64,000 nt of DNA, taken from positions 744,001 to 808,000 of the forward strand of contig NZ_ATTE01000001.1 in assembly GCF_000419525.1 (NCBI RefSeq), read 5' to 3'. This document shows, in pieces, positions 4,782 to 24,001 of the stretch (the first letter of the stretch is position 1; every line of letters starts with the position of its first letter). Both the position numbers and the translations under genes were made by a program. The notes under the pieces are model-generated. The model did no database searches. It had not been told where the DNA came from and saw nothing but the letters and a program-made list of their open reading frames with translations. The stretch comes from Leucothrix mucor DSM 2157 (lineage in GTDB: Bacteria > Pseudomonadota > Gammaproteobacteria > Thiotrichales > Thiotrichaceae).

Positions 4782-4797
4782 ACCGATCTCCTCGTTT

Positions 4798-4836: not shown

Positions 4837-4865
4837 ACTCACAATTTTATAAGGATGAGTTTTTA

Positions 4866-7214
4866 ATGTCTTCAAGCATGAACCCTCACTCGCAGGCTAG
4901 TTATCTTGACGAGCCAAAAGCCGGACGGTTGAATATCCAGTATTCTCCTGCGTCGGGTACATCAGTCATTGAAAATCCACCTCGTTTTATGTGGCTGCCC
5001 GTGGTGGAAGATGAGGCGCAGTATGTACTGCAAGTCTCTGACAATGCCGATTTCAGCGGCGCGAACACACACTCATTTAGTAACATCGAAGTTAACTTTT
5101 TAACGCCGGATGTCACCTTTAAGCCCGGCGAATACAGCTGGCGTTATGCCGTTTGCGATGCCAAAACCGGCAAGCCACAAAGTGCCTGGAGCACGGTGCG
5201 CAGTTTTAGTATTCCGGAAACAGCGATTGCTGGGCCGATTCCTAATCGCGCGAAGCGTTACCAGTCAGTTAGTACCGCTCACCCACGCTTATGGCTCAAT
5301 CCGGAAAGCGTTGCGGCCTTTAGCGAGTCGCTAAAAGAAAACCCCGATTATTGCAGCTGGGAGACCTTTTTTGAGAAGTCAGTCCAGCCATGGCTTGAGC
5401 GTCCTGTGATGGATGAGCCAAAGCCATACCCGAACAACACCCGAGTCGCGAACATTTGGCGACAAACCTATATTGATTGTCAGGAGTTGGTCTACGCGAT
5501 CCGCCATCTGGCCGTCGCAGGGCATGTATTAAAAGATCAGCAGATGCTCGATCAGGCCAAAGCGTGGTTACTCTCCTCAGCCGCATGGGACCCGGATGGC
5601 CCAACCTCTCGCGCTTATACCGATGAGTGGGCATTCCGCGTGGCCGTTGCATTAGCCTGGGGCTATGACTGGTTATATGAAGAAATGACACAGGATGAGC
5701 GCGATTTAGTGCGTGCCTCCTTGTTAGCCCGTACCCGCCAAGTTGCCGATCACGTCATCAAAAACGCCAACATTCAATTGTTCCCATACGACAGCCACGC
5801 GGTACGCTCAGTGTCTGCGGTATTGGTTCCGGCCTGTATTGCAATGTGGGATGAAGAGCCGGAAGCGCGCGAATGGCTGGACTACTCCATTGAGTTCCTC
5901 GCCACGGTTTACACGCCATGGGGCGATGAGCAGGGTGGCTGGGCAGAAGGCCCGCACTACTGGATGACGGGAATGGCGTATCTGATTGAAGCGGCCAACT
6001 TGCTGAAAAACTATTTCGCAATTGATTTGTATCAGCGTCCGTTTTTCCAGAAAACCGGCGACTTCCCGCTCTACACCAAAGCACCTGACACCCGTCGCGG
6101 CACCTTTGGTGATGACTCCACCATGGGTGATTTAGTCTGCCTGAAAGTCGGTTATAACCTGCGCCAATTCGCCGGCGTGACGGGCAATCAGGCTTACCAG
6201 TGGTATTACGAAGAAGTAAAGCGTAATGACCCCGGCACTGAAATGGCCTTCTACAACTACGGCTGGTGGGATCTTAACTTTGACGAGCTGATGTATCAGC
6301 ACGACTACCCCATCATCGAAGAAGCAGCCCCAGCAGATGATGACAAACTGCGCTGGTTTAAAGGCGTCGGTTGGGCCGCCATCCAGCATAAAATGGATGA
6401 CCCCGATCAGCATATTCACTTTGTAATGAAAGCCAGTAAGTTCGGCTCGATTAGCCACAGTCACGGCGACCAAGGTGCCTTCTGTATGTCGGCCTTTGGT
6501 GAAGATTTAGCGATTCAATCTGGCTATTACGTGGCGTTTAGCAGTGATATGCACATGAACTGGCGACGTCAAACGCGTTCTAAAAATGCCATTTTAATTA
6601 ATGGTAAAGGGCAGTATGCGGACCATGATAAATCCTTAACCATGCGCTCAACTGGTCAGATATTGGCGGCTGAAACGCGTGATGATCATATTTATATTAA
6701 AAGTGAAGCCACAGCGGCCTATCAGCACTTTAATCCACAAGTCACTCGGGTGGAGCGTGAAGTTTACTTTGTGCAAAACAACTACTTTGTGATCGTGGAC
6801 AGTGTGGATGCCGATGAGCCGGTTGAAATTGATTGGCTGCTACACGCTAACAGTGATTTCAGTCTGGGCGAAAGCTCATTCCGTTACAGCGGCGAAAAAG
6901 CGGGCTTCTACGGTCAAGTACTTTGGTCGGAAGGTGGCGCGGCAACATTGACTCAAGCCAAAGATTTTGAAGGGATTAATCCTGAAGAATACGCAGGCTT
7001 GCCAGTGAGCACGCACTTGAATGCTAAATTTCCAGCGGCAAAGCGCCACCGGATTGCGACTTTGCTAGTGCCGTATAAATTGGATGAGCCAAAGCGGATT
7101 TTCCAATTTTTGGATGATCAGGGTTATGACTGCAACTTGTACTTTACGGACTCTGAAGAGCGCTCGTTTAAGTTGGTGATTGAGAAGCTGGCCACTGTGT
7201 TCAAATATGGCTAA
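4866..7214 (+). CDS. Exolytic alginate lyase, polysaccharide lyase family 15
   Basis: 782 aa, the length of Agrobacterium Atu3025 (776 aa), the type PL15 exo-alginate lyase, which releases unsaturated monosaccharide from alginate oligomers by beta-elimination. The sequence follows that enzyme throughout from memory: N-terminal beta domain with ENPPRF-WLP, an alpha-toroid with PYPNNTRVA and WRQTYIDCQE, then the heparinase II/III-like beta domain. The catalytic residues I recall for Atu3025 fall at identical numbers here: His311 in YDSHAVRS, Tyr365 in EGPHYW and His531 in SHSHGDQ. No signal peptide is seen, so it should act in the cytoplasm on imported oligomers. It is last in the alginate operon, after a partial terminator, and is followed by a strong one. 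A heparin lyase assignment is less likely given the AlgQ neighbour. Confidence 0.93.
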   Translation: MSSSMNPHSQASYLDEPKAGRLNIQYSPASGTSVIENPPRFMWLPVVEDEAQYVLQVSDNADFSGANTHSFSNIEVNFLTPDVTFKPGEYSWRYAVCDAKTGKPQSAWSTVRSFSIPETAIAGPIPNRAKRYQSVSTAHPRLWLNPESVAAFSESLKENPDYCSWETFFEKSVQPWLERPVMDEPKPYPNNTRVANIWRQTYIDCQELVYAIRHLAVAGHVLKDQQMLDQAKAWLLSSAAWDPDGPTSRAYTDEWAFRVAVALAWGYDWLYEEMTQDERDLVRASLLARTRQVADHVIKNANIQLFPYDSHAVRSVSAVLVPACIAMWDEEPEAREWLDYSIEFLATVYTPWGDEQGGWAEGPHYWMTGMAYLIEAANLLKNYFAIDLYQRPFFQKTGDFPLYTKAPDTRRGTFGDDSTMGDLVCLKVGYNLRQFAGVTGNQAYQWYYEEVKRNDPGTEMAFYNYGWWDLNFDELMYQHDYPIIEEAAPADDDKLRWFKGVGWAAIQHKMDDPDQHIHFVMKASKFGSISHSHGDQGAFCMSAFGEDLAIQSGYYVAFSSDMHMNWRRQTRSKNAILINGKGQYADHDKSLTMRSTGQILAAETRDDHIYIKSEATAAYQHFNPQVTRVEREVYFVQNNYFVIVDSVDADEPVEIDWLLHANSDFSLGESSFRYSGEKAGFYGQVLWSEGGAATLTQAKDFEGINPEEYAGLPVSTHLNAKFPAAKRHRIATLLVPYKLDEPKRIFQFLDDQGYDCNLYFTDSEERSFKLVIEKLATVFKYG

Positions 7215-10470: not shown

Positions 10471-10695
10471 TTAGTGGTAGTGTTTCGGTAGCGGCGTGCC
10501 GCTAATCGTCATGCCATCTGGCCACAGGGCTTCACCCCAGGCATACCACTGCGGGCGCTGGGGCAGCGGATACATGCGCACATCATCCGCTTTTTGATCA
10601 ACCAGCACTTCTATTGCGGCGGTTAACTCCTCGCGGTCGGCCTCGTTTAACACGGCAATAAACACCGACTTTTGCATGGCAATGGCTTGGCTTTT
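10471..10695 (-). pseudogene. Truncated duplicate of cas2 (3' part only)
   Basis: About 215 bp match the 3' two-thirds of the cas2 gene at 14027-14335 at roughly 95% identity by eye, including the stop and the bases after it. The match begins at MQKSVFIAVLNEADREE and runs to PLPKHYH; the first 34 or so residues, with the beta strand and Asp of the Cas2 ferredoxin fold, are missing. The similarity ends abruptly at about 10695, where unrelated sequence leading to the primase-helicase gene begins. It is a remnant of a cas2 copy cut by an insertion or rearrangement. A 68-aa peptide could still be made but cannot be a working Cas2. Confidence 0.85.
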
Positions 10696-10805: not shown

Positions 10806-13160
10806 TTACCCGCTTGAAGAAGTACAGGATGATTTAACCGAGTAGCCCATCGTCTTATAACTTTTTTCTCGCTTTTTAAACATTCGTTCAAGCATAGGTA
10901 TATTTATATCAACATAGTCGAAAATCGTGACTTCATCCTTACCTTCAGATTCTCGATGAATCCTACCAGCATATTGGGCCAGTGAACCTTTCCAAGCTAT
11001 AGGCATCGCGAGAAATAGAGTATCGAGCCTTGGTAAATCAAAGCCTTCACCCACATACTTCCCAGTCGCTACGACCACACTTGCGGTGTGTAGGCATTCT
11101 TCTACTTTCCTTCGTTCTACAGCTCGCATGGAGCCTTTTAAAATGACAGAGTTCACTCCGTTTTCTATGAGCAGCTTGTGGATTCTCTCTGCATGTGCTC
11201 TTCGCTCAGTTAGCACGAGTGGGTGTTTCGATGAGACAACATGCTTAAGTACGTCGTCAATAATCCTTTGGGTGCGATTATCATTTTCTAAAATCCATTG
11301 GTAGACATCACTGATTTTGGGTCGCTCGGCTGGATTAACCAATTTTTCAGGAGGTTGGTCGTCTATTTGGGTAACGATAACCTCTTGTTTAAACTGAGCA
11401 CCATGGTTCGGCTTCATTTTGTGACGAATGGGGCCTACTGTCATAAAGATGATTTTCTGATGTCCATCTTGTCTGTCTGGTGTTGCTGTCAGTCCTAGCA
11501 CAAACTTAGCCCTAGCTTCATTTAATACCATTTCGAACCGTGGCGCTGAGACATGGTGGCACTCATCAACGATAACCTGGCCATAATTCTGCACTATTGA
11601 GTCGACTGTATTGTCTCTTTTATTAATCAAGCTTTGGTAGGTCGCGATATCGATGAGCCCAGTTGGTTTTTTCTTCCCGCCACCAATCACTCCTACCTCA
11701 ACACCAGGTAAAAAAGTTTGAAGTCTCTCCTGCCACTGGCTCAGCAACTGTCGGCTATGAGTCAAAATAAGTGTGTTCGTTTTTCGTTTAGCAATAATGC
11801 CAATGGCTGTTACTGTTTTACCGAAAGCAGTTGGCGCATACAAAATTCCTGTGTCGTGTTTGCTCATTATTTTGACCGCTAAGGATTGATTTTCTCTCAG
11901 TTTAACCAGTAACTTCAGCCCCTTTAACTCTATTCCTTCCTGTCGTTTGTCATTGATATCGATGCTTATGTTTTGCTCTTTAAGTAAGTCAATAGCTTCA
12001 TCAGCGCAACCACGCGGTAATGCTAGGTAACCCTGTTCTATTTTGGCACAAGTGATAAATCTTGGAATACCGTGGGTTGAGAACCTTAACGCTTGGGTTT
12101 TAAAAAATACCGGGTTTGAGAAACTGGCTAGCTTTCGTAATTGGGCAATGAGCAATGCCGGAGTTTCACTAAGCTTGAGGTAAAAGTGATTTGCCAACGT
12201 TACGGTTATTCGTTTCGGAGGATTTTCAATGAATAACGGTTTTATCTTAGCTGTTTGTTCCCACGGCAGGCTTCTATCGGCAAGATCTTGTTCTTGCGGT
12301 TGTATCAGGCTGGGAGATATTTGAGAAAGCAACTTCGATAGTGTTTGTTGAGACACGGTTTTAATTTGCGCCAGATGATCCCACTGATCAGAGTAGGGTA
12401 GTAAGGACTGGCCTACGAAGCAGCTATAACCAGATTTACGTGCCTCTTTCTGTAGTGGTAGCGCAATGAGATTTCCAAATCCTCCTTCTGGCATGATGTC
12501 TTGACTTGGAAATAAGCGATCGTAGGCGTCGAACGATAGGCTGGGATAAATCTCCATTGCTTTATCAAGTAAGGAGAACCCAAGCAATCGAACCTCTTTA
12601 GCCTGGACAGGTTCGGAGAAAAATATCCAGAGGTGAGCTCCATTTCCAGAGCGTGAGACTTCAATGGTGTGCGGAATGTCAAATTGAGAACAGGCTTCTG
12701 ACATCGCTTTTACAGCATCTTGCCAGCCTGCTTTATCAAAGTCTGCGGCAAGTAGGTAGCAGGAATTATCGGGAAGCAGAGGGTAAAGCCCAACGACTTG
12801 CCTTCCCGATAGGTGATCATAAAGTACTTGTTGATTGAGTAATGTATATTTTCGATTAACGCACTCGCTGCACTTTATTCGGGGTTTTTCACAAAGACCC
12901 TTTACCCATTCATTGTCACAAGCTACAGAGTATCCACTTCGACCTTTAGTACTTTGCCAACGGGTAGCAAAAATATCTGTTCTACCTTTGAAAAGGCTTT
13001 CGAATACAGATATCTTTTGCTGGATTGTTAGTTTTGATTGCGTTTGACTATTTTGCTGTTGAATCAGACTTTGGCGTTTGTGCAACAGCTGCTGCTTCTC
13101 AGCTTCCAGCTCAAGAATACGCTGATCAATGATTTTTATTTCATCGACCCAGTCAGCCAT
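10806..13160 (-). CDS. Primase-helicase: AEP domain fused to SF2 helicase (TOTE-type)
   Basis: 784 aa. Domains in order: N-terminal coiled coil (about 10-45); a cysteine cluster C90-x6-C97-x2-C100, probably zinc binding; an archaeo-eukaryotic primase domain with the DxD pair Asp140/Asp142 in LLAADFD and His176 in SGNGAHLWIFF; a linker; and an SF2 helicase with Walker A APTAFGKT (442-449), DECH (532-535), GLTATP and a late AGRIHR motif VI. This primase plus DEAH-like helicase arrangement is known from the TOTE conflict systems and from related genes in mobile elements. It likely makes or copies nucleic acid at a damaged or invading replicon; the exact role is unknown. It follows the small gene and the PIN gene by 17 bp in one operon and sits exactly between two fragments of a duplicated cas1-cas2 pair, which suggests arrival as a cassette. 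Confidence 0.85.
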   Translation of the reverse strand: MADWVDEIKIIDQRILELEAEKQQLLHKRQSLIQQQNSQTQSKLTIQQKISVFESLFKGRTDIFATRWQSTKGRSGYSVACDNEWVKGLCEKPRIKCSECVNRKYTLLNQQVLYDHLSGRQVVGLYPLLPDNSCYLLAADFDKAGWQDAVKAMSEACSQFDIPHTIEVSRSGNGAHLWIFFSEPVQAKEVRLLGFSLLDKAMEIYPSLSFDAYDRLFPSQDIMPEGGFGNLIALPLQKEARKSGYSCFVGQSLLPYSDQWDHLAQIKTVSQQTLSKLLSQISPSLIQPQEQDLADRSLPWEQTAKIKPLFIENPPKRITVTLANHFYLKLSETPALLIAQLRKLASFSNPVFFKTQALRFSTHGIPRFITCAKIEQGYLALPRGCADEAIDLLKEQNISIDINDKRQEGIELKGLKLLVKLRENQSLAVKIMSKHDTGILYAPTAFGKTVTAIGIIAKRKTNTLILTHSRQLLSQWQERLQTFLPGVEVGVIGGGKKKPTGLIDIATYQSLINKRDNTVDSIVQNYGQVIVDECHHVSAPRFEMVLNEARAKFVLGLTATPDRQDGHQKIIFMTVGPIRHKMKPNHGAQFKQEVIVTQIDDQPPEKLVNPAERPKISDVYQWILENDNRTQRIIDDVLKHVVSSKHPLVLTERRAHAERIHKLLIENGVNSVILKGSMRAVERRKVEECLHTASVVVATGKYVGEGFDLPRLDTLFLAMPIAWKGSLAQYAGRIHRESEGKDEVTIFDYVDINIPMLERMFKKREKSYKTMGYSVKSSCTSSSG

Positions 13161-13177
13161 TAAATATTGATGAAGTG

Positions 13178-13387
13178 CTAGTTTGTAGCTGCTTGTATTG
13201 CATCAAATAACTCGTCGACGCTTGGATTTCCCAAAAGCGTATGGCGCTCCTCAGTATAATTACCATGTCCTTGCTCATACTGTTGTATGAATCGAATAAA
13301 GCCAGTAGAGCCTAATTGCTTATGCAAAGCTTGATAGGCTATTGTCTGGATTTCTCTTTCTGTGGGGTAGCTAATTATGGCGCTCAT
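13178..13387 (-). CDS. Small antitoxin-like protein paired with PIN toxin
   Basis: 69 aa from the ATG at 13387, which shares one base with the stop of the PIN gene (TAATG) and has AGGAG eight bases upstream; a longer start at 13408 has no such site. The protein is mostly helical (YPTEREIQTIAYQALHKQ, then a polar tail ending VDELFDAIQAATN) and acidic overall. No DNA-binding motif is obvious. Size, translational coupling and partner point to the antitoxin of a VapC-like pair. The order is unusual, toxin first and antitoxin second. The next gene downstream is the primase-helicase, 17 bp away, so all three genes probably share one transcript. Confidence 0.65.
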   Translation of the reverse strand: MSAIISYPTEREIQTIAYQALHKQLGSTGFIRFIQQYEQGHGNYTEERHTLLGNPSVDELFDAIQAATN

Positions 13388-13821
13388 TATAAAATCTCCT
13401 GTACCCAAGCAAGTGGGTTGCTAGCTGTGAGCTTAACATCCGGTAGTTGCTTGATCTTCTTCAATAAACGGTCATCTGTGGTCAAAAACACGTCTGCGTG
13501 TGCCTCTGCACATGCTAAATGTAAAGCATCAAACGCTTTAATTCCTGACTGCTCAAAGTATCTGGCACGCTCTCTAAAGGAAGGTTGCAATCTAATATTG
13601 AGTTGTGCCGAACTTAATATCAATTCTAGGTATTGACGCTTGTCAGGTGCTGTAATCTTTTGAACTTCATAGCTTAGTACATCACTCGTTAACAGGGCCC
13701 ACCCATCTTGTTCGCACAGGGACAGAATCGTTTTAACCGCTTCAGCTTCTAAATGAATTCTGGGGTAAGACTGATCATCGAATGGACGATTCAAACAGCA
13801 ATTATCAAGGTAAATGTTCAT
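13387..13821 (-). CDS. PIN-domain ribonuclease toxin (VapC-like)
   Basis: 144 aa, the whole protein is one PIN domain. The first acid is in MNIYLDNC (Asp6), a middle Glu in EVQKI, the third acid in FDALHLACAEAHADVF, and the last pair in TTDDRLL; these are the four acidic positions that bind Mg2+ in PIN nucleases. VapC-type toxins cut tRNA or rRNA when not held by the antitoxin; the target here cannot be told. It opens a three-gene operon: PIN, 69-aa partner (overlap of one base) and AEP-helicase. It may stabilise the inserted cassette or serve as an abortive-infection element. Confidence 0.8.
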   Translation of the reverse strand: MNIYLDNCCLNRPFDDQSYPRIHLEAEAVKTILSLCEQDGWALLTSDVLSYEVQKITAPDKRQYLELILSSAQLNIRLQPSFRERARYFEQSGIKAFDALHLACAEAHADVFLTTDDRLLKKIKQLPDVKLTASNPLAWVQEIL

Positions 13822-13827
13822 TAGTTA

Positions 13828-14016
13828 CTAGTCCGATAGCCCATGCTTCAGATAAATACTAGCATAATAGCCTTTGTCATAATGAATATCTTTATAGCCA
13901 CAAAAAGCAATCAGGGCGCAATTCTCACTGTCAAAACCAAAATACTGTAATAGTACCGTCTGCGATGCCATAAACCAGAGATCCAGCAATAGCCTTTGCA
14001 AGCCTTTGCAAGCCAT
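13828..14016 (-). pseudogene. Relic of the cas1-like gene (internal fragment)
   Basis: An open frame of 62 codons contains GLQRLLLDLW-x3-SQTVLLQYFGFDSE, which aligns with CLKRLLPMLAAQQTVLLKHFGFDSE inside the Cas1-like protein encoded at 14322-15086; the DNA is similar at about 70% over some 40 bp (around 13915-13975). After FGFDSE the similarity ends and the following residues are not Cas-like. Taken with the cas2 fragment at 10471-10695, this looks like the other half of a cas1-cas2 copy interrupted by the PIN/primase-helicase cassette. Two direct copies of CAAGCCTTTG lie at its 5' edge (about 13990-14010). Not expected to be functional. Confidence 0.7.
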
Positions 14017-14026
14017 TGCCTGATCT

Positions 14027-14335
14027 TTAGTGGTAGTGTTTTGGTAGCGGCGTGCCGCTAATCGTCATGCCATCTGGCCACAGCGCCTCACCCCAGGCAT
14101 ACCACTGCGGGCGCTGGGGCAGCGGATACATGCGCACATCATCCGCTTTTTGATCAATCAGCGCTTCTATTGCCGCAGTTAGCTCCTCGCGGTCGGCCTC
14201 GTTTAACACGGCAATAAACACCGACTTTTGCATGGCAATGGCTTGGCTTTTGAGCAAGCGATGCACCCGCTGCAAGCGTCGGGAATCACTAATGTCGTAG
14301 GCGATTAGATAGGGCTTTTGTTTAGTTCGGCTCAT
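14027..14335 (-). CDS. cas2: Cas2 (set B, paired with Cas1-like beta-domain protein)
   Basis: 102 aa from the ATG at 14335, which overlaps the end of the upstream cas1-like gene by 14 bp; a start four codons earlier is possible. The ferredoxin-like start KPYLIAYDISDSRRLQRVHRLLK with the conserved Asp, and the SVFIAVLNEADREEL strand, mark it as Cas2, the structural partner of Cas1 in spacer capture. The tail is longer than in many Cas2 proteins and ends in a proline-rich ISGTPLPKHYH. It differs clearly from the Cas2 of set A (16265-16549), so the locus carries two Cas2 types. A truncated near-identical copy is at 10471. Confidence 0.9.
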   Translation of the reverse strand: MSRTKQKPYLIAYDISDSRRLQRVHRLLKSQAIAMQKSVFIAVLNEADREELTAAIEALIDQKADDVRMYPLPQRPQWYAWGEALWPDGMTISGTPLPKHYH

Positions 14336-15086
14336 GTTCAATCTCATAAAAACGGTGCCACAGGCTATCGACCCAAGCGCGCGTTTTGCGCTCCAGTACA
14401 GGGCTGTGCTGTTGAAAATAATGAATCAGCTGGTTGCGGCGCTTGCCCGTGGGTAACTGCCCGTTGGCAGCCAGCGCCCAAAGCTCCCACTCCAGCAGTT
14501 CAATAAATTGCTGTAATAATCCCCGCGTAGCCGGAGCGGGGCGCAACACCTCGCTATCAAAGCCAAAGTGTTTTAGTAGCACGGTTTGTTGCGCCGCCAG
14601 CATAGGCAGTAAACGCTTCAAGCAATCGGCCCAGTAATAAAACTGGTGATCCAGACAAATCAGCTCGTTTAAACGGGCTTTGATAAACGCCGGCTCGTAC
14701 TGTGAACGCGGCAACCGGAAGCGCTTTTGCAAGTGCAGAATCTGCCGCCGATGCTGTGCCTGAAACCAGTGATCCAGCAAGTACAATTGCGAGCGGGACT
14801 CGTGCAGCTCTAATACATGTGACTGCAAAGTTTGCTGGCGGTAGTCGGTGCCAAAACAAATGCCGACATACTCACCGCCGGAGCCTGCAATCACCACCGG
14901 AATATTGTTTGAAAGGCAGGCCGCCAGCAGCGTTGAAGAAAGCTCCAGATGGCCATTGATAATGACGCGTGAAATGCGCTGTAGTGGAAACCAGACATCG
15001 GCCAGCTGCTGAGAAGTGACACGAATGGCATTGTGCTCCAGCTTAGCCCGCAGCACCTGATTGCCATCCAGATATAAAGGCTTCAT
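14322..15086 (-). CDS. Cas1-like protein: N-terminal beta domain, no clear nuclease motif
   Basis: 254 aa from the ATG at 15086 (AGGAG nine bases upstream); the open frame extends further up but without support. Residues 1-85 (MKPLYLDGNQVLRAKL, then VWFPLQRISRVIINGHLELSS and LSNNIPVVIAGSGGEYVG) follow the Cas1 N-terminal beta domain, which forms the Cas1 dimer interface. The remaining 170 residues are helical (LLPMLAAQQTVLLKHFGFDSE, LLEWELWALAANG) but show none of the Cas1 signatures: no EGxAA helix glutamate, no FLH, no SLALDL. The missing nuclease half is present in a separate gene at 15589-16215. This protein could supply the dimerisation half in trans, or be a degenerate Cas1 with another role. 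It is translationally coupled to cas2 (set B). The adjacent array leader lies upstream, transcribed the opposite way. Confidence 0.7.
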   Translation of the reverse strand: MKPLYLDGNQVLRAKLEHNAIRVTSQQLADVWFPLQRISRVIINGHLELSSTLLAACLSNNIPVVIAGSGGEYVGICFGTDYRQQTLQSHVLELHESRSQLYLLDHWFQAQHRRQILHLQKRFRLPRSQYEPAFIKARLNELICLDHQFYYWADCLKRLLPMLAAQQTVLLKHFGFDSEVLRPAPATRGLLQQFIELLEWELWALAANGQLPTGKRRNQLIHYFQQHSPVLERKTRAWVDSLWHRFYEIEHEPN

Positions 15087-15159
15087 GTGGTTTGCTCCTG
15101 TGAATATCGCTGATTGTATGTGCGCTAGTGTAGCCAGAGGCAGGGGCATAATTCAGCCT

Positions 15160-15342
15160 TTACAAGCTTGCGGGAAGTGACAGGCAGCTGATTTGGGTGG
15201 ATAATGCAAACTCACCGCTGGACTGTTTATTAAATTCACGTAGTTGGTTAAAGAATGTTCAAACCTAACTTTTTGAAAACTGAAAATCCTGACAAGGGCC
15301 CTTGCAAGTTATTGAAAGTAAAGGTCGAAAAAGGTGCCCGCG
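15160..15342 (+). promoter_or_regulatory. CRISPR leader of array 1
   Basis: About 183 bp that match the region before array 2 (17414-17596) closely over their whole length, from AAGCTTGCGGGAAGTGACAG to GGTGCCCGCG just before the first repeat. The shared block includes GGGTGGATAATGCAAACTC and CACGTAGTTGGTTAAA. Such conservation next to the first repeat marks a leader: array promoter plus Cas1-Cas2 docking site. The degenerate final repeat lies at the other end, which agrees with this orientation. Confidence 0.85.
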
Positions 15343-15516
15343 GTGAAAACGATGCCCTGATGAAGAAGGGATTAAGACCGATCTGTTACAGCCTGACTAC
15401 GTTCTGACAGAGCGTGAAAACGATGCCCTGATGAAGAAGGGATTAAGACATACTTCATTGCTCATCGTTTGTACCACTCATCAGTGAAAACGGTGCCCTG
15501 ATGAAGAAGGGATTAA
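15343..15516 (+). CRISPR. CRISPR array 1 (3 repeats, 2 spacers)
   Basis: 36-bp repeats at 15343-15378, 15414-15449 and 15484-15516; the last loses its final GAC. Spacers are 35 and 34 bp (15379-15413, 15450-15483). The repeat begins GTGAAAACGATGCC and ends GAAGGGATTAAGAC; it can form a short CCCT/AGGG hairpin with loop GATGAAGA, followed by the 8-nt ATTAAGAC, a plausible crRNA 5' handle resembling the ATTGAAAC of type III systems. The array sits between the two cas1 halves, on the opposite strand. Confidence 0.95.
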
Positions 15517-15520
15517 ACAA

Positions 15521-15568
15521 AAACACCCACAATCGCACTACAGATACATAATGCGCTTGTGGGTGTTT
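15521..15568 (-). terminator. Terminator of the cas2-cas1 (set A) transcript
   Basis: Perfect 12-bp stem (AAACACCCACAA, 15521-15532; TTGTGGGTGTTT, 15557-15568) with further inner pairing CGCA/TGCG. Read on the - strand it is followed by TTTTTGTTT, a good T-tract, and lies 21 bp after the stop of the Cas1 nuclease gene. On the + strand it also lies just behind the last repeat and may end the array transcript. Confidence 0.8.
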
Positions 15569-15588
15569 GTTCTAAGTAAGCTGCTATT

Positions 15589-16215
15589 TTAAGCGGGCAG
15601 ATCCTGCTGAAATGCCTCCAGCCTTTTCCGCAAATGCCGAATCTGCCAACGCATGGCCCGCATAATCGGTTTTAACTGCGCCTCATACGCCATATAAAAA
15701 CGATAGCGTCCGGCTTTGGCGAGCAGGCAGCCGTTCTGATCGGTGGTAAAATCGTCCGCGCGCAATTCCCGCTCATTAAACAAGCGCCAAACAAACTCAT
15801 CCACATGCGGTCGCCAGGGCTCGATGAGGTCGGCGGCGAGCGAGTCGCGACTGTATTTCGGCTCATGTAAAAAGCCCAACATCGGGTCCAAACCCTGAGC
15901 GTAAGCCAGCTGTACGGCGCGCGAATGCAGCAAGGTGTAAGCCAGCGATAAACAGGCATTCACCGGATCGGGTGGCGGGCGACGTTTGCGACCGGTAAAG
16001 CTCAGTGACTCGGCAAAAAACAACTGATACGCCCCAAACCCAATCCGCGCCGCATTGCCTTCAATGCCTCGCAAGCGCACCACGTCGACCGGTGTTTGCA
16101 GGCTTGCCACCGTATCTGATAATTGATCGATAGCTTTGGTTAGCGGATAGCGTAAATCGGCTCGGGCCTCCAGCTGGCGTTGTAAAAATCGGCGTTGGTT
16201 GCGGACTTTAGCCAT
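15589..16215 (-). CDS. cas1: Cas1 nuclease domain as a free-standing protein
   Basis: 208 aa from the ATG at 16215. It starts where a full-length Cas1 (about 330 aa) is roughly one third through: MAKVRNQRRFLQRQ corresponds to the AKxRNQ helix after the beta domain. From there all signatures of the catalytic alpha-helical half are present: Glu52 in RGIEGNAAR, FTGRKRRPPPDPVNACLSLAYTLL, His117 in GLDPMLGFLH and Asp129 in SLAADLIEPWRP. These are the three metal-binding residues of the integrase site. The beta domain is absent; only 49 bp separate this start from the preceding cas2 stop, leaving no room for it. A Cas1-like beta domain is encoded separately at 14322-15086. Either the two work as a split Cas1, or this gene is an N-terminally truncated but otherwise intact remnant. 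Confidence 0.85.
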   Translation of the reverse strand: MAKVRNQRRFLQRQLEARADLRYPLTKAIDQLSDTVASLQTPVDVVRLRGIEGNAARIGFGAYQLFFAESLSFTGRKRRPPPDPVNACLSLAYTLLHSRAVQLAYAQGLDPMLGFLHEPKYSRDSLAADLIEPWRPHVDEFVWRLFNERELRADDFTTDQNGCLLAKAGRYRFYMAYEAQLKPIMRAMRWQIRHLRKRLEAFQQDLPA

Positions 16216-16264
16216 CAATTTTGAGTTGGGTATTTTTGCGGTCGAGGTAGAGTGTTGTCATGGT

Positions 16265-16608: not shown

Positions 16609-16692
16609 CTACTGACATAATCAGGATAGTAACTGCATCTTTGTGCTAATATTATGCATCTTTATTGATCAAAGTAATCAGTGGCTGGCGTT

Positions 16693-17415
16693 ATGGAAAA
16701 TGAACTCACCGCAAAGAGCACAGACAAGTATGAGATCTTTGCTTTCAGCTATTGGTATTACCTCGTCTTTCTCCTGCTCTATATTCCGCCCATTATTTTG
16801 TATTTTGTTTACTCCGATTCGGTCAGTTTAGCCATGGGTGAGACCGGCGCTACAATTGGCTTTCTGGTAATAATGCTATTGCCGTATTTCATTGCGGGGT
16901 ATGTCGCCAACCGATTAACTCGCCGTCCCGTTAGAGTGAGCTTCGATGATTGGCAGATTACGGTGGAATATTTTTCACGAAATTTAGAGTATGTGAAGAA
17001 AACCGAGAGCTGCCAGCTTAAGTATATTGAGAGTTTTAACGACTACAATTTGACCAGCAATAGTTTCCGTTTGAAGCTTATGAATGGCGATACTTTTTCA
17101 CTCCATCCAAGCGGGCATCAGAAGAAAGACAGTGATTACGAGCGCTTGGTCAAAGATTTTAAGCAGCACGTCCATACGCTGAACCCACACAATGCTAAAG
17201 GAGCAGTGAAGTACGATGATTTTCTGAGTAGCTTTTGGGGAAAGGCGCTTTACCAGATCTGCTTGGTTGCTGTTTGGGGGAGCGTGCCATTATTTATCTA
17301 TGTCATTTTCATCCGTGATCCGTTTGAGTGGAGCTTGTTAAAGTTGCCTGTTGGGCTATTGTTTGGCGGCCTTGCGTACATTTCAAAGTATTTAAAGTGG
17401 GATGATGAAGAGTAA
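16693..17415 (+). CDS. Membrane protein of unknown function in the CRISPR island
   Basis: 240 aa from ATG 16693 (GTG 16681 is also possible; neither has a strong ribosome site). Two hydrophobic segments near the N-terminus (about residues 18-42 and 52-75), then a soluble part of about 100 residues rich in beta strands (RVSFDDWQITVEYFSR, SFRLKLMNGDTFSLHP) that resembles a PH-like membrane-associated fold, and two more hydrophobic segments near the C-terminus, ending in acidic WDDEE. I do not recognise the family. It lies between a lone leader-edge motif and the leader of array 2, whose edge motif begins one base after the stop codon. It may be a cargo gene or an accessory membrane effector, but nothing in the sequence proves a link to CRISPR. 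Confidence 0.65.
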   Translation: MENELTAKSTDKYEIFAFSYWYYLVFLLLYIPPIILYFVYSDSVSLAMGETGATIGFLVIMLLPYFIAGYVANRLTRRPVRVSFDDWQITVEYFSRNLEYVKKTESCQLKYIESFNDYNLTSNSFRLKLMNGDTFSLHPSGHQKKDSDYERLVKDFKQHVHTLNPHNAKGAVKYDDFLSSFWGKALYQICLVAVWGSVPLFIYVIFIRDPFEWSLLKLPVGLLFGGLAYISKYLKWDDEE

Positions 17416-17596
17416 ACAAGCTTGTGGGAAGTGACAGATGGTTGGCTTGGGTGGATAATGCAAACTCACCGCTGGACTGTTTGTTAAATTCACGTAGTTG
17501 GTTAAATAATGTTCAAACCTAACTTTTTTAAAACTGAAAATCCTGGCAAGGGCCTCTGCAAGTCATTGAAAGGAAAGGCCGAAAAAGGTGCCCGCG
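17416..17596 (+). promoter_or_regulatory. CRISPR leader of array 2
   Basis: About 180 bp nearly identical to the leader of array 1. It opens with ACAAGCTTGTGGGAAGTGAC right after the stop of the preceding gene and ends with GGTGCCCGCG before the first repeat. The differences are scattered single bases, so the two leaders are diverged duplicates rather than an assembly artefact. It should carry the array promoter and the integration anchor. Confidence 0.85.
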
Positions 17597-18118
17597 GTGA
17601 AAACGGTGCCCTGATGAAGAAGGGATTAAGACGATGGTGGCGCTGACCAATCGCTCAATTGATTTGCGTGAAAACGGTGCCCTGATGAAGAAGGGATTAA
17701 GACACTTTCCATCGGCTTATCTCGCCGTCGTCTAAACGTGAAAACGGTGCCCTGATGAAGAAGGGATTAAGACCGCTACATGGTGATGCATCAAGAAAGA
17801 AAAAGCGTGAAAACGGTGCCCTGATGAAGAAGGGATTAAGACTTTGCAAAGTAGGTGCAGCATTTGATCTGCTTATAGTGAAAACGGTGCCCTGATGAAG
17901 AAGGGATTAAGACGGTCTCGCCGGGACCATTGGATGATTCAAGAATGTGAAAACGGTGCCCTGATGAAGAAGGGATTAAGACGCAATTTTGAATTGCACG
18001 GTGTAAGAGCCTTTGGTGAAAACGACGCCCTGATGAAGAAGGGATTAAGACCATCTGCAACAAGCGTGTCCAGAATCTGCTTACGGTGAAAACGATGCCC
18101 TGATGAAGAAGGGATTAA
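17597..18118 (+). CRISPR. CRISPR array 2 (8 repeats, 7 spacers)
   Basis: 36-bp repeats start at 17597, 17668, 17738, 17807, 17878, 17947, 18016 and 18086; the last is cut after GATTAA. Spacers are 33-35 bp. Repeats 1-6 carry GGTGCC; repeats 7 and 8 carry GACGCC and GATGCC, so variants gather at the leader-distal, older end, as expected. The repeat is the same as in array 1, ending ATTAAGAC. Open frames across this block that repeat MKKGLRR or VLIPSSSGHRFH are translations of the repeats and are not genes. Confidence 0.98.
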
Positions 18119-18133
18119 ACTCACTCACCAAAC

Positions 18134-18180: not shown

Positions 18181-19560
18181 ATGGACAAAAACCTACAATC
18201 ACTCCTCGAGAAGCTAGCAAAACAGGGCGGTTCAGCCGTTTCAATCGCTGCATTATCGGACAAATCGGACAAATCGGACGTATCCCCGCGTACGATTCGC
18301 CGTCGCTTGCACCAGTTAATCGAGCTTGGCTTGGTCGCCTCACACGGTAAAAATCGCGGTGTTCGTTACGCGCTGGCAGCGGTGCAGGCTGCACCGGATA
18401 GCCCCCCAACGGCGATTGCCGAGCCCGCCGAAAGCTATGCCAGTTTTGGTTTTAGCGCAGCCAATCAGGCCTTGATTAACCAGATTCAGCAGCCATTGAT
18501 TTGTCGGCAATATTGCAGTTATCGCCCCGAATGGCTGGCGGCGTATCAGCCAAATCGCAGCTTTTATTTATCCGCCGCACAACGCGACACGCTTCGCCAA
18601 GCCGGTCAGCCGCTGGCACAAGGGCTGCCTGCCGGTACTTATGCGCGGCAGATTTTCAATCATCTTTTGATCAACCTGTCGTATAACTCCTCGCGTTTGG
18701 AAGGCAATACTTACTCGCTGGCGGATACTGAAAAACTGCTGCTGTCTGGCAAAGCGGCGGATGGCAAGTTGGATATGGAAACCCTGATGCTGATCAATCA
18801 CAAAGAGGCGATTCGCTTTTTGGTGGATGGCATTAATCGCATGGAAATCAGCATTGATAACATCCGCTCCCTGCATTATTTGCTGGCGGATGGCTTGGTG
18901 CAGCCGGAGGATGCGGGGCAGGTGAGAACTGGTGGCGTGCGGATCTCCTCATCGGTGTATCTGCCATGGGAAGGCGAGGCGCGGTTAATGGCGCAGCTTT
19001 CGGCGATTGTGGACACTGCCGACGCCATTCACGACCCGTATGAACAGAGCTTTTTTCTGCTGGTGCATCTGGCGTATTTGCAGGCTTTTATTGATGTGAA
19101 TAAGCGCACCGCGCGGCTAGCGGCTAACTTGCCATTGGTGCGTCATAATTGTGTGCCGGTGTCGTTTAGCGATATTAGTGTCGAGGCTTATGTGTCGTCG
19201 ATGCTGGTGTGTTATGAACTGAATGAAACCGGGCCATTGGCCGAGCTGTATACCTGGTCGTATTTGCGCAGTTGCGAACATTACACCGCGCGGGCGGACT
19301 CCTTGGGGATTGACTTATTGCGGGTGCAATACCGTGCGCCGCGTCGGGCTTTGATTGCCGACATTGTGCGGGAAAATCTACACGGCGAAGCGCAGTTGGC
19401 CGCGATTGAGGCCTTTGTGCAAAGCCAGATCGAAGATGCGCATCGGGAAAAGTTCTTAAGCGATCTGCAGTTTGATCTTGATGCACTGGCACCGCATCGC
19501 ATAGCAGGCATGGGGATTACGCAGGCTGAGTTGGCGCATTGGCAAGCTTGTGGGAAGTGA
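18181..19560 (+). CDS. Winged-helix/Fic-fold protein with degenerate Fic motif
   Basis: 459 aa. The first 65 residues look like a winged helix (VSPRTIRRRLHQLIELGLVASHG...GVRYAL). The Fic part has the inhibitory helix SSRLEGN (170-176) and the core LQAFIDVNKRTARL (300-313). In an active Fic enzyme this core reads HPFxDGNGR or HPFxDGNKR; here the catalytic His is Gln301 and the first Gly is Val306, while Phe303, Asp305, Asn307, Lys308 and Arg309 remain. AMP transfer would be impaired, so the protein may act mainly as a regulator or have another activity. The last residues (WQACGK) are encoded by a copy of the CRISPR leader-edge motif (AAGCTTGTGGGAAGTGA), so the 3' end has probably been remade by recombination. 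An operator-like cluster flanks the start. Its place between arrays 2 and 3 is probably cargo. Confidence 0.8.
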   Translation: MDKNLQSLLEKLAKQGGSAVSIAALSDKSDKSDVSPRTIRRRLHQLIELGLVASHGKNRGVRYALAAVQAAPDSPPTAIAEPAESYASFGFSAANQALINQIQQPLICRQYCSYRPEWLAAYQPNRSFYLSAAQRDTLRQAGQPLAQGLPAGTYARQIFNHLLINLSYNSSRLEGNTYSLADTEKLLLSGKAADGKLDMETLMLINHKEAIRFLVDGINRMEISIDNIRSLHYLLADGLVQPEDAGQVRTGGVRISSSVYLPWEGEARLMAQLSAIVDTADAIHDPYEQSFFLLVHLAYLQAFIDVNKRTARLAANLPLVRHNCVPVSFSDISVEAYVSSMLVCYELNETGPLAELYTWSYLRSCEHYTARADSLGIDLLRVQYRAPRRALIADIVRENLHGEAQLAAIEAFVQSQIEDAHREKFLSDLQFDLDALAPHRIAGMGITQAELAHWQACGK

Positions 19561-19799: not shown

Positions 19800-20726
19800 A
19801 TGCAGTCACCACTCCTCGATTTACCCTTTTCCGAATACCGATTTCTTTTTCAGGCTGATGAGAAAATCAGTTTTCCTGAATACACGGGCTCCATGTGGCG
19901 AGGCGCATTCGGTCATGCCTTAATGGAGCTTGCGTGCTGTGGTTCAAAGCCACACCTTCCATGGTGCCCATACAGCCAGCTATTCGAAGCAGAGCAACAT
20001 AACTTTGTTGATAACGAGCTAACTCTTACCTATAAAACACTCCCTGTTCCCTATGTATTTAAGGTACAGCGACAGCCAGCTAGAGAGGCCTCAAAAGGTG
20101 ATTGGTTTTCAGTTGATCTATTGTTAATTGCTCAGGCTAATCAGCATCTGGTATTGGTGATTGATGCCATGCAACGTATAGCTAAAGTCGGGATCGGCAA
20201 GGGCAAAGGTCGGGCTCAGCTTAAAGAGGTTGTTCAGCAAAATGCATTTGGAAATCAAAGCTTAATTTATGCAGATGGGCTGCATTTTAAACCCGATTGC
20301 TTAACCACGATTCCAGTGGTCACTCCCAGTACTGCGGCACGCATACATATTGAGACACCTCTGAATATTAGAAATGATGAAAAAGAGTTCTCTACCGAGC
20401 GTTTTCTCATGGGCGTTGTCCGGCGGATTTCATTGCTACAACGCATTTATGGCAATACGCTGGCAGATGTGGACTATGTCTGGCTAAAGCATCAATCAGC
20501 CTTGGTTGAAAGTAAGGCGAGTGTTTGGGTCGATGGGTGGAAAAAGCACTCTTCCCGGCAAGGAGCTTATCAGCCTGTACGTGGCTGGATGGGGGACGTG
20601 TTTTTGCAGGGTGAGGCCTTACAGAGCTTTTGGCCATATTTGTATCTTGGGCAATGGGTACATACCGGAAAGATGACAAATATCGGACTAGGGCGGTATC
20701 AGTTACAACGTGTAACAGTCAGCTAA
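19800..20726 (+). CDS. cas6: Cas6 pre-crRNA endoribonuclease
   Basis: 308 aa RAMP-fold nuclease that cuts the repeat RNA to release crRNAs. The N-terminal half has the RAMP pattern with TGSMWRGAFGHALMEL (about residues 29-45) and an HLPWCPYSQLFE segment typical of Cas6 in type III loci. The C-terminal half ends with SFWPYLYLGQWVHTGKMTNIGLGRYQL, the glycine-rich loop that closes the RNA-binding cleft. The Cys pair near CPYS and ELACC may be structural. First gene of the effector operon, 19 bp before the cas10-like start codon region. A second, truncated Cas6 at 29040-29476 shares the same C-terminal layout. Confidence 0.93.
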   Translation: MQSPLLDLPFSEYRFLFQADEKISFPEYTGSMWRGAFGHALMELACCGSKPHLPWCPYSQLFEAEQHNFVDNELTLTYKTLPVPYVFKVQRQPAREASKGDWFSVDLLLIAQANQHLVLVIDAMQRIAKVGIGKGKGRAQLKEVVQQNAFGNQSLIYADGLHFKPDCLTTIPVVTPSTAARIHIETPLNIRNDEKEFSTERFLMGVVRRISLLQRIYGNTLADVDYVWLKHQSALVESKASVWVDGWKKHSSRQGAYQPVRGWMGDVFLQGEALQSFWPYLYLGQWVHTGKMTNIGLGRYQLQRVTVS

Positions 20727-20757
20727 TCGTACTAAAAATATATACATGGAGGTTGGA

Positions 20758-22212
20758 GTGCCACAAAATTACTTGTTGCGCGCTGAAGGCGTTAATTTAA
20801 GCGCTGTGCTTGAGGATACGAATCAGCTTAGTGTTATCCGGGGGAGTAGTCTCATGCTGAGCGACTCCGTGAAATGCTTATTGCCTCATTTGAGTGCACG
20901 GTTTAAAGATATCTTGTTTTCAGAAATATCCCGCGATGCTTCCGCAGTCATTATCAAATTCAGCTCGCTTGAGACAATCGCTACCTTGGTTGTGAAGGAA
21001 GCGATTCAATTCTTTTGTGATCAGTATAAAGATTTTACGTATGTAGTTGACTCTATAAGTGCGACGGATGATTTTATTGAGGATCAGCATCGGCTACTGG
21101 CAAAGAATCGTCTACGGCAACTACAACAACCAACGCTCGCTGTACCAGAGTGGAATACGACTAATACGACTGTGGCCGTGTGTGAGGTCGATGGTATTCG
21201 ACCAAGTGGTTCTAATAAAATTACCGGTAGCACGATTACTTCAGATTCTGTTTTCAGGCGCTTTAGCGTTGGTAGAGATAAGCGGTCTGCATTTTACAAA
21301 GATGAATTAGGTGATGTGGTTGACTTCGACACCCTGATGTTTACCAGTGATCTGCAAGCATTGGCGAAAAGCCATCAGCATGGAAATCTGAATAATAAAA
21401 TTGCAGTCATTTATTGGGATGGTAATGGCTTTGGGTCGATGCAATCACGGCTGGTAAAAACAGCAGAAGAAAAAACAGCCTTTGATGATGAGATTACTCA
21501 AAAGCATCGTGCTTTTCTGAAACAGCAGATTTTGGACTCACTTAAAAATAAAGATTATCTGACTCATAACGGAGAGCTGCGTTTAGAGACTTTGCTGTGG
21601 GGAGGGGATGAGATTTTAATGGTGGTTCCGGCCTGCTGTGGCTTTGATACCTTGTTACGGTTTTATCAAGCGATTGAAAACTGGACGTATCGAGGCGAAA
21701 AAATGACTTATTCGTGCGGTCTGGTTTTCTCTCAGGCCAATACGCCAATTTATCGGCTGACTAAATTAGCCAAAGATTTAGCAGAAACGAATAAACAAGA
21801 CCCACAGTTAAAAACTCATAACCGACTAGATTATCTGGTGCTGGAATCAATGGATTTTCCATCTGAGCCATTGGATGTGCTTCGCCAACGCCAGTACCAA
21901 CTAGTCGCTGAGAGCCGTCAAAACTTACAACCTCTGGATGCGACAGGTTTGTCAACGCTCGCTCATGCACTGATCGAGTCCGATTTTCCAAAGAGCAAGC
22001 TTGTCGAGCTTGTAAAAACGTATGTTGCAGACGGAGAGGAGGCGGCTCAAGTTGTTGAAAACCGGATTGCACATGTTATTGGGGAGGCGCAAATGACAAG
22101 AGTGACGCGGCATATTGCACAACTTTTCCAGCAGGATGACCCTTTCTGGAACTGGCTGCACTTGGCTGAGTTATGGGACTACTTGCTACCTTGGGGAGAT
22201 CGCAATGACTAA
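20758..22212 (+). CDS. cas10: Cas10-like palm protein without HD domain, GGDE motif
   Basis: 484 aa from GTG 20758, preferred because GGAGG lies five bases upstream; ATG 20746 would put that box inside the gene. Cas10 is the large subunit of type III complexes and can make cyclic oligoadenylates with its palm domain. Here the palm is recognisable: IAVIYWDGNGFGSM with Asp221, and WGGDEILMVVP with Gly282-Gly283-Asp284-Glu285, in place of the usual GGDD. Acids needed for two metals are therefore present. No HD nuclease motif is seen at the N-terminus and the protein is far shorter than Csm1 or Cmr2 (about 750-900 aa). A Cys pair (PACCGFD) follows the palm and the C-terminus is helical. Overlaps the next RAMP gene by 8 bp. 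It is a reduced Cas10; a plain GGDEF cyclase is unlikely given the neighbours. Confidence 0.82.
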   Translation: MPQNYLLRAEGVNLSAVLEDTNQLSVIRGSSLMLSDSVKCLLPHLSARFKDILFSEISRDASAVIIKFSSLETIATLVVKEAIQFFCDQYKDFTYVVDSISATDDFIEDQHRLLAKNRLRQLQQPTLAVPEWNTTNTTVAVCEVDGIRPSGSNKITGSTITSDSVFRRFSVGRDKRSAFYKDELGDVVDFDTLMFTSDLQALAKSHQHGNLNNKIAVIYWDGNGFGSMQSRLVKTAEEKTAFDDEITQKHRAFLKQQILDSLKNKDYLTHNGELRLETLLWGGDEILMVVPACCGFDTLLRFYQAIENWTYRGEKMTYSCGLVFSQANTPIYRLTKLAKDLAETNKQDPQLKTHNRLDYLVLESMDFPSEPLDVLRQRQYQLVAESRQNLQPLDATGLSTLAHALIESDFPKSKLVELVKTYVADGEEAAQVVENRIAHVIGEAQMTRVTRHIAQLFQQDDPFWNWLHLAELWDYLLPWGDRND

Positions 22213-24001
22213 GCCAGTAAATGATTATAGGTTTGAAGTCGTTCTGACGCTGCGTTCTCCGGTTATGTCTGCTGGCGTGGATGCGGCTTCCTTAGGTATT
22301 GATGCGAGTCCTCTGCTAACTGATAAAGCAGGGCAGCGATATCCCATACTACCAGGTAGTTTGATTAAGGGGAACTTAAAACACAGCTGGAAAAAATTGT
22401 GCGAGATCAGCTCATCCGGTTCTTGGATGAGTGATCAGCAAATTCAGTATTGGCTGGGTAGTGAAGCCGATCAAAAAAACAATGCTCCATCCCGCGCAAA
22501 ACTGAGAGAGTCAGATCAGTGGATTGCTGAGATTCCGGCTATGGCAGGGCAGACGCGTTACCGGATTAAGCTTGAGGAAGAGACCGGTAAGGTGGAGCGT
22601 GGTGCACTTCAGCAAATTGAAATTCCTCATCCGGTTGGTAAAGAAGTCAATTATGTCGGCTGGTTTGAATGTACCTGTACCGAAACTGTCGCACAGCAGT
22701 TATATGGATACCTTAAGCAGGGATTAGCGTTTGTGCCTTCACTGGGTGCATTCAAAGGTATCGGCTTTGGCGTGATAAAAAAGGTAGAAATTACGCCACC
22801 TCAGTTGGTGGAACATCGCCATCAGATCACTGACTGTGGTGGTGATGTATTTGGTATGAGTTTAATGCTGGATCGTCCTCTTTCGCTCAATCATGCACTG
22901 AACCAAGTGGGTAATCGCTTTGAGCCAATCGACTTTATTCCGGGTGCTGCAATCAAAGGAGCCATTGCTAGCCGTATCGCTCAATTTGATGATCAATCAC
23001 GATGGCCAAGCTTGTTGGGCCAACTTGATAAGATTCGATTTACTCACGCTAAAACAGAGTTAAGACGAGAGGTAACGCGCAGGAGTGTTCCTGTGCCTAT
23101 GAATCTGTACGTTCACAAGCAGCAAGCAGTGGTCAGCGCGGGGCTTATCACACCGGAAGTATCGTTGCCTGAGAGTGGTCATATTGCCTTTCAGCCGGAT
23201 TGGAAAAGCACAGAATGGAGCGCAGTGAATAATCTGTTTCAAAGCGATTTTGAACAGCCACCGGTTCACACGTTGCGAGTTAGGACAGCTATAAAAGAAG
23301 GTGCGGGTATTGCTGATGATGGGCGGCTTTTTTCAAGTGAGGTGATTGAGGCTGATCAGCACCAATGGCTGTGTGATGTCAGCCTCACTGCCGTGCCTGG
23401 TATGGAAAGGGATCAAGTCCGGCGAGAGTTAATCGATCTATTGAGCTACGGCATTAATAGCTTGGGCAAACTGGATGCCTGCACTGTTGATATTCGATTG
23501 AAGGCTGGGCGTTGGCCAACTACGATTCCTGAGAGTCCTGTTAATAAGACGCGGGTGTGCTTATTGCTCATGAGCGATGCAAGGCTGTTTCCCGATAAGG
23601 GTTTAGATCTGAGTGGAACTAACGGTGGGGACGAATTACATCGCTATTATTTTGAGTGTTGGAGTTCTCTCTCTGGCGGATTGTTAGAGCTGGATGAGTT
23701 TTATGCCCGTCAGAAACTAGTGGGCGGCGAGTATTATCGCAGACGTTTTAAGCAGTTGGAGAAAGCGTATAACCCATGGTTGGTTACTGCCGCTGGTAGC
23801 ATTTTCTATTTTCAAACATCTGATGTTGATGCCTGTGCGAAGTTGTTGGAGACGTGGGGACACTCAGGGGTGAGAGTCCTGCCAGAGCTTTCAGATAAGT
23901 GGGATGAAAACCCAATGGTACCTGCCAATGGTTACGGTGAAATATCGGTTAATCCTATTTTTGATACTCAGGCAATAGAGGAGGCACTGAACCATGGTTG
24001 A
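22205..24001 (+). CDS. Type III RAMP protein 1, at least two fused Cas7-like domains
   Basis: 598 aa from ATG 22205 (GGGGAG seven bases upstream, 8-bp overlap with cas10). Domain one: LTLRSPVMSAG, then SLGIDASPLLTD with Asp33, then YPILPGSLIKGNLKHSWKK, the order found in Csm3/Cmr4, where the equivalent Asp cuts target RNA every six bases. Domain two: MSLMLDRPLSLN and DFIPGAAIKGAIASRI (about residues 244-258). The last 130 residues (TRVCLLLMSDARLF, FYARQKLVGGEYYRRRF, WLVTAAGSIFYF) resemble the C-terminal part of Csx10/Cas5-like proteins, so a third RAMP unit is likely. It would form a continuous piece of the crRNA-binding backbone. Not assignable to a single Csm or Cmr name. Confidence 0.8.
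   Translation: MTKPVNDYRFEVVLTLRSPVMSAGVDAASLGIDASPLLTDKAGQRYPILPGSLIKGNLKHSWKKLCEISSSGSWMSDQQIQYWLGSEADQKNNAPSRAKLRESDQWIAEIPAMAGQTRYRIKLEEETGKVERGALQQIEIPHPVGKEVNYVGWFECTCTETVAQQLYGYLKQGLAFVPSLGAFKGIGFGVIKKVEITPPQLVEHRHQITDCGGDVFGMSLMLDRPLSLNHALNQVGNRFEPIDFIPGAAIKGAIASRIAQFDDQSRWPSLLGQLDKIRFTHAKTELRREVTRRSVPVPMNLYVHKQQAVVSAGLITPEVSLPESGHIAFQPDWKSTEWSAVNNLFQSDFEQPPVHTLRVRTAIKEGAGIADDGRLFSSEVIEADQHQWLCDVSLTAVPGMERDQVRRELIDLLSYGINSLGKLDACTVDIRLKAGRWPTTIPESPVNKTRVCLLLMSDARLFPDKGLDLSGTNGGDELHRYYFECWSSLSGGLLELDEFYARQKLVGGEYYRRRFKQLEKAYNPWLVTAAGSIFYFQTSDVDACAKLLETWGHSGVRVLPELSDKWDENPMVPANGYGEISVNPIFDTQAIEEALNHG

Follow-up and report, generated by a model that had tools for sequence, protein, structure and literature searches.

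A 64,000-nucleotide stretch of the Leucothrix mucor DSM 2157 genome (contig NZ_ATTE01000001.1, positions 744,001 to 808,000; hereafter the window) carries two Cas1-like genes in a type III CRISPR (clustered regularly interspaced short palindromic repeats) locus. One of them, at 15589–16215, encodes only the nuclease domain of Cas1, and the other, at 14322–15086 and here termed dcas1, encodes a Cas1 fold that has lost its catalytic residues. From its conservation in relatives, we consider it rather likely that dCas1 serves a heteromeric Cas1/dCas1/Cas2a/Cas2b integrase as its dedicated non-catalytic subunit; the window's version of this conserved type III operon is damaged and probably no longer adapting. 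In the order of minus-strand transcription, the window locus comprises cas2a, the short Cas1 gene, array 1 with its leader (both on the plus strand), dcas1 and cas2b, with the following features:

14027–14335, minus strand: cas2b (PF09827, E 4e-17), overlapping the 3' end of dcas1
14322–15086, minus strand: dcas1, a complete Cas1 fold without the catalytic Glu and His, member of a conserved family
15142–15342, plus strand: leader of array 1, a copy of the array 2 leader
about 15343–15516, plus strand: CRISPR array 1, three repeats, sitting between cas1 and dcas1
15521–15568, between array 1 and the end of cas1: terminator-like inverted repeat, read directly, with its arms checked (AAACACCCACAA at 15521–15532 and TTGTGGGTGTTT at 15557–15568)
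15589–16215, minus strand: Cas1 alpha (nuclease) domain only, 208 residues, the product of a beta-domain deletion
16208–16261, minus strand: remnant of the Cas1 N-terminus, out of frame, 17 codons followed by TAA
16265–16549, minus strand: cas2a (PF09827, E 9e-12)
17597–18121, plus strand: CRISPR array 2, eight repeats, with a leader at about 17396–17596

An earlier note on this DNA, made by a model from the letters and a list of open reading frames, had described the odd Cas1 pair on one strand, the array and terminator-like hairpin between its members and a cas2 gene beside each. This arrangement is confirmed and lies far beyond chance. The same note had taken the product of 14322–15086 for a Cas1 beta domain without a nuclease motif, and both the beta-domain match and the missing motif stand, as PF01867 matches only residues 14–122, the first half of the protein (E 2e-10). 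However, the gene is not a mere beta-domain gene. A profile of 78 dCas1 proteins aligned end-to-end with the profile of active Cas1 (probability 98.8, E 6e-17, 245 columns). The AlphaFold2 model of the window dCas1, built from 63 aligned sequences, reached a pLDDT (predicted local distance difference test score) of 91.3 and a pTM (predicted template-modelling score) of 0.87, and matched Thermotoga maritima Cas1 (4xtk_D) with Z 20.2 and a root-mean-square deviation of 3.2 over 249 of 254 residues. In a Foldseek search with this model, a casposase was the top match (E 2.7e-8), with Cas1s close behind. As modelled, the protein is a whole two-domain Cas1 fold that includes the alpha domain, and not a beta-domain fragment.

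Within this fold the metal site has been lost. In the profile alignment of the 78 dCas1 rows, the helix bearing the catalytic Glu has no counterpart and no row has the G.EG..[AG] motif; the His column holds His in four of them, and the Asp column keeps Asp in 62, the window protein having Gln193. All three residues are invariant in the 96 active Cas1 rows, the window's included (the rows include three loci fetched twice: L047/L061, L056/L062 and L058/L084). dCas1 is thus catalytically dead, with its catalytic residues lost and its Cas1 fold retained.

The four-gene order is conserved in relatives. A scan with a Cas1 alignment gave 497 confirmed loci, and we annotated the best 80, which represent the nearest relatives and not Cas1s at large. 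In 63 of these 80, dCas1 follows a full-length catalytic Cas1 in the order cas2a-cas1-dcas1-cas2b (L070, whose dcas1 is broken into two frames, is counted here and was excluded from alignment A3). Among the 17 loci without dCas1, two end at a contig edge and 15 have a three-gene form. cas2a is present in 78 loci (missing from L100 and L119) and cas2b in 76, the four lacking it all ending at a contig edge. The gap between cas1 and dcas1 has a median of −1 nucleotide and a maximum of 247 nucleotides across the 63 loci, versus 502 in the window, which is the sole annotated locus with a long separation, and dcas1 and cas2b are neighbours that overlap in many of the loci. A first, smaller set of relatives gives the same picture: of its 15 clade loci, 14 have dCas1 flanked by cas1 and cas2b (in L058 the cas2b is a short frame), the exception being L047 with cas2a-cas1-cas2b, and the Cas1 frames of all 15 span 319–410 residues from stop to stop. 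A 16th fetched locus, L060, yielded no match to dCas1 and was excluded as having a different kind of Cas1.

A search led by dCas1 itself agrees with the scan. Matches were found in 37 of 397 genomes of the phylum, including the window's own, and nine of the 30 loci fetched were annotated. Seven other genomes carry dCas1 (six complete, one at a contig end), with cas2a and a Cas1 bearing Glu, His and Asp beside it in all seven and cas2b in six; the annotated G292 locus has Cas1 and cas2b and no dCas1. The best matches in the remaining 28 genomes reach at most 51 bits and are mostly partial; as a group, we read them as probable ordinary Cas1 beta domains. In none of the annotated loci was dCas1 met apart from an active Cas1 neighbour. 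The dCas1-bearing loci of the Cas1 scan are labelled Pseudomonadota, Nitrospirota, Acidobacteriota and, through one weak match (L135), Deltaproteobacteria; many come from metagenome assemblies, and dCas1 also occurs in cultured strains, among them Ectothiorhodospira mobilis (L090) and Thiothrix eikelboomii (L062), which have intact modules. In a quick Cas1 phylogeny, the four-gene loci are scattered across the whole clade (95 rows, SH-aLRT 96), and the four-gene state requires seven changes among the labelled rows. In summary, dCas1 is a conserved family in a conserved four-gene order, and not a degenerate copy.

These loci also bear on the proposal of the earlier note that 14322 supplies the beta domain and 15589 the nuclease domain of a single Cas1 working in trans. 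While both genes are open and their Pfam matches complementary, relatives carry a full-length Cas1 and a 14322-type protein side by side, the latter has an alpha domain of its own, and the beta domain lost from the short Cas1 left an out-of-frame stub upstream; we therefore regard a split Cas1 as highly improbable. The note's own alternative, a truncated Cas1 beside a degenerate paralogue, is right in its first half and wrong in its second. Relatives with a full-length Cas1 and no 14322-type partner, which the note had named as the mark of a recent truncation, occur only as three-gene loci such as L047/L061.

The short Cas1 has the catalytic Glu52, His117 and Asp129 of the alpha domain where the earlier note had placed them. 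It indeed has no N-terminal beta domain: its PF01867 match is limited to profile positions 107–282 (E 3e-55) and its alignment begins at column 112. The start of Cas1 is still encoded upstream, at 16261–16211, in a different frame, as 16 Cas1 codons and one more (MTTLYLDRKNTQLKIDG) followed by TAA. This TAA falls two bases past the ATG of the short gene (16215), so that the two frames overlap (ATGGCTAA). The remnant was detected by tblastn with residues 1–15 of the Cas1 of a congener, L045 (E 0.008), and relative to that protein the net loss is about 281 nucleotides, with residues 17 to about 110 gone, out of frame. The window Cas1 is a local deletion product, and the beta domain is present in all 95 of the other Cas1 rows. 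The genome gave only these two Cas1 matches, with no further Cas1 found that could complement, so spacer acquisition in this strain has probably been lost or much reduced. The genome also has 12 CRISPR repeat matches versus 39 and 56 in two congeners, a low count that fits lost adaptation on the strength of these two comparisons. The effector and arrays of the strain may still work.

The leader and array 1 duplicate the array 2 set, 15162–15516 matching 17416–17770 at 84% over 361 columns with the array repeats included, and segmental duplications put this leader and array between cas1 and dcas1. Two further gene scraps accompany them:

10474–10695, minus strand: second copy of cas2b, partial, 74 of 102 residues at 97%
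13924–14001, minus strand: scrap of a second dcas1, 26 columns at 65% (E 8e-4 in a 10-kb search)

In the simplest account, a segment of the locus would have been duplicated, with later losses leaving cas2a-cas1 in one part and dcas1-cas2b in the other. Repeats and leader copies surround the site, as might be expected of an assembly or sequencing error. However, the genome (5.19 Mb) is assembled in two contigs, the one with the window being 5.1 Mb long, and the deletion, the inserted leader-array and the two scraps would each need an error of their own, which leaves artefact as a very remote explanation.

To explain the retention of dCas1, we propose the following arrangement for the intact operon. 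Cas1 would be the sole catalytic subunit, and dCas1, which keeps the fold (its beta domain best) and has lost the metal site, would stand in for the chemically silent protomer of solved Cas1–Cas2 integrases, at the 'Cas1b' position. Each Cas1 dimer would be a Cas1:dCas1 heterodimer, a Cas2a:Cas2b heterodimer would bridge the two, and the ends of the prespacer would be joined to the array by Cas1 alone. In the window, the leftover alpha domain could perhaps be translated by re-initiation at the overlapping frames. We infer this heteromer and its division of labour from several directions. By analogy with solved complexes, a Cas1 gene without a metal site that is kept beside an active one would fit a dedicated subunit for the silent position: passages of the paper on the Cas6-RT-Cas1-Cas2 complex (RT, reverse transcriptase) distinguish Cas1a domains, which are catalytic, from Cas1b domains, which are not (PMC8102632), and a passage on the type II-A integrase points out a contact between a non-catalytic Cas1 and the repeat (PMC6895254). 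The conservation profile, too, would be in line with a silent subunit. With the beta/alpha boundary set by us at residue 80, dCas1 is better conserved in residues 1–80 (1.93 bits) than in the remainder (1.22 bits), and Cas1 shows the reverse (2.22 versus 2.50 bits; 75 loci). The distances of dCas1 and Cas1 correlate with r 0.85 over 74 loci.

Several observations weigh against this proposal, or against the loss of function in the window. First, the broader idea of a two-chain integrase, raised in the earlier note, is favoured by the conserved pairing and not by the single docking attempt: the fold of a fused Cas1-dCas1 chain (L090) gave a pTM of 0.53 and no confident docking, with just five aligned rows over the Cas1 half. 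The alignment used for that fold held fused chains and dCas1 rows only, and its conserved columns fell in the dCas1 half; fused alignments with Cas1 rows added (five fused chains; a version with ten Cas1 rows) seemed to place dCas1 rows on the Cas1 half. Second, adjacency and correlated distances are equally expected from simple co-inheritance. Third, 15 loci have no dCas1, yet both Cas2 types are found in 14 of them (the contig of the other, L119, begins within cas1), so an integrase of this kind does not strictly need dCas1. Fourth, the short Cas1 shows no clear acceleration relative to its relatives. It is 66–68% identical to the Cas1s of L045 and L046, which are 72% identical to each other, and 60% identical to that of L047, to which L045 and L046 show 57%. 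It breaks one of 49 columns invariant in ten relatives, and the relatives themselves break 0–6 by the same test. These identities and invariant columns were used because Nei–Gojobori (NG86) synonymous distances were saturated in all six Cas1 comparisons, leaving no omega. The low divergence fits a recent loss and also retained use of the fragment, so one of these two should apply.

The last point leads to a reading in which the window machinery works, a re-initiated alpha-only Cas1 pairing with dCas1, whose beta domain would give the dimer contact, as a naturally minimised integrase. The short Cas1 frame is open with all catalytic residues, the stub frame overlaps it, its divergence is low as described, and the frames of dcas1, cas2a and cas2b are all open. 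However, the deletion is out of frame, the beta domain is missing from no other Cas1 row and the arrays are short, and we consider a working alpha-only Cas1 improbable.

Another reading gives dCas1 and Cas2b a separate complex with another job, such as capturing or trimming prespacers, recognising the leader or restraining Cas1. The adjoining and often overlapping dcas1 and cas2b genes speak for it, as does the lack of confident Cas1–dCas1 docking. However, the best-conserved part of dCas1 is its beta domain, the part through which Cas1 dimerises. In addition, Cas2b is kept in all 15 three-gene loci, which have no dCas1, and is thus not simply dCas1's own partner. We regard a separate complex as unlikely, though deserving more weight than a working alpha-only Cas1, and continue to favour dCas1 as the silent subunit of a heteromeric integrase.

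The three-gene loci, cas2a-cas1-cas2b, are L061, L073, L082, L095, L106, L119, L123, L128, L130, L132, L133 and L136–L139. They share the Cas1 clade and the two Cas2 types with the window module and differ from it in having no dcas1. In the quick tree, ten of their rows form a supported group (L082, L119, L128, L130, L132, L133 and L136–L139; SH-aLRT 98), and the other five are scattered cases (L061/L047, L073, L095, L106 and L123). The presence of two Cas2 types in both the four-gene and three-gene forms suggests a Cas2 heterodimer. Modules with two Cas2 genes were not found in our search of the open-licence literature.

The module is embedded in type III systems. In the window it is linked to CRISPR arrays and to the following genes:

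19800–27889, plus strand: Cas6, Cas10 and fused RAMP (repeat-associated mysterious protein; Cas7/Cas5-like) genes, type III, most III-D-like

In the relatives, flanking genes were sampled by 30 scans out of 220 flanking frames, covering 28 proteins. Twenty-one scans matched Cas10, RAMP, Cas6 or CARF/Csm6-type proteins, several under the curated cut-off, and nine matched none of these; flanking proteins of L066 and L112 had no NCBIfam match but were Cas6 in Pfam, and the non-matches were housekeeping, NYN, ArdC-like, AAA and helicase proteins. The effectors beside the module are of the Csm (L045, L057, L052 and L102), Cmr (L046) and III-D-like (L055 and the window) kinds, so type III effectors of several kinds accompany the module. 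The arrays adjoining it in six relatives scanned for repeats share a common core, CCCTGAT...AAGGGATTAA.

Other genes of these loci are of interest in their own right. The window Cas10 (20746–22212, plus strand) has just 488 residues, with a palm2 match, a GGDE sequence and no HD-domain match. Directly after the RAMP genes, at 27905–28747 (plus strand), lies an S-4TM membrane effector (PF18159, E 2e-53; '4TM' in PADLOC). This family is known from cyclic-oligonucleotide-based anti-phage signalling systems (CBASS), so that its placement in a type III locus looks unusual to us. A second Cas6, short at its N-terminus, follows beyond the effector genes at 28961–29476 (plus strand; PF10040, E 6e-19). 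A Fic-family gene and a gene for a membrane protein (18181–19560 and 16681–17415, plus strand) sit between the arrays and leaders as if inserted. On the minus strand, a TOTE conflict-system primase-helicase protein (10806–13160; PF22548, E 2e-95) adjoins the CRISPR gene scraps, and the interval 13178–13821 between the two cas2b copies encodes a PIN-domain protein (PF01850) whose gene is overlapped by a small one that matches nothing in Pfam; the two may form a toxin-antitoxin pair. In the congener L045, an NYN-domain protein (4400–5767; PF01936, E 4e-28) adjoins the type III-A locus.

Every solved Cas1–Cas2 integrase known to us is built of identical Cas1 copies, half of which do the chemistry. 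If a silent copy has a gene of its own, together with two Cas2s, the roles of the protomers become genetically testable, and the system could reveal how polarity arises in an integrase. More tentatively, at somewhat below even chances, the spacer-writing integrase of a large class of type III systems may be obligately heteromeric, with Cas1 for catalysis and dCas1 for scaffolding encoded by different genes and with a heterodimeric Cas2 core. Such a machine would have an inherent left and right side, and this asymmetry could set the orientation of spacers or restrict the choice of the end to be joined first. The three-gene form would be a simpler relative. It is the widespread dCas1 module that matters, and less the window itself, which is a broken example.

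Compared with known systems, the dCas1 family has been noticed by curators and has a name, and as a machine it is apparently undescribed. The searched profile libraries mostly score dCas1 simply as Cas1, and the PADLOC profile PDLC01185, 'Cas1, diverged variant, second in the loci', matches all 63 dCas1s of the scan (best E 6.7e-147). The window dCas1 matches it partially (residues 4–92, E 3.3e-9), as its fourth-best Cas1 profile. The name gives the position of dCas1, second after the active Cas1, although in the window the inserted leader and array 1 intervene. It says nothing of the lost catalysis, of the two Cas2s that go with dCas1, of a three-gene sister form or of a type III setting. We found no study of the dCas1 family in the open-licence literature, although a subscription paper could describe it; passages of PMC3150331 matching 'inactivated cas1' concerned Cas10. 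The window dCas1 model also matches the Cas1 domain of the RT-carrying integrase Cas6-RT-Cas1-Cas2 (7kfu and 7kft; Z 18.6). We take that integrase to be type III as well; the Cas1s of the present clade, with a median of about 325 residues, are too short for a fusion with RT and Cas6. With the canonical Cas1–Cas2 integrase, in which a Cas2 dimer bridges Cas1 dimers, dCas1 has the Cas1 fold in common, and a passage on a solved complex likewise describes one protomer of the Cas1 dimer as non-catalytic (PMC8102632). The canonical integrase, however, makes both protomers from one gene, whereas the module described here could use a separate gene for the silent one, plus two Cas2 genes.

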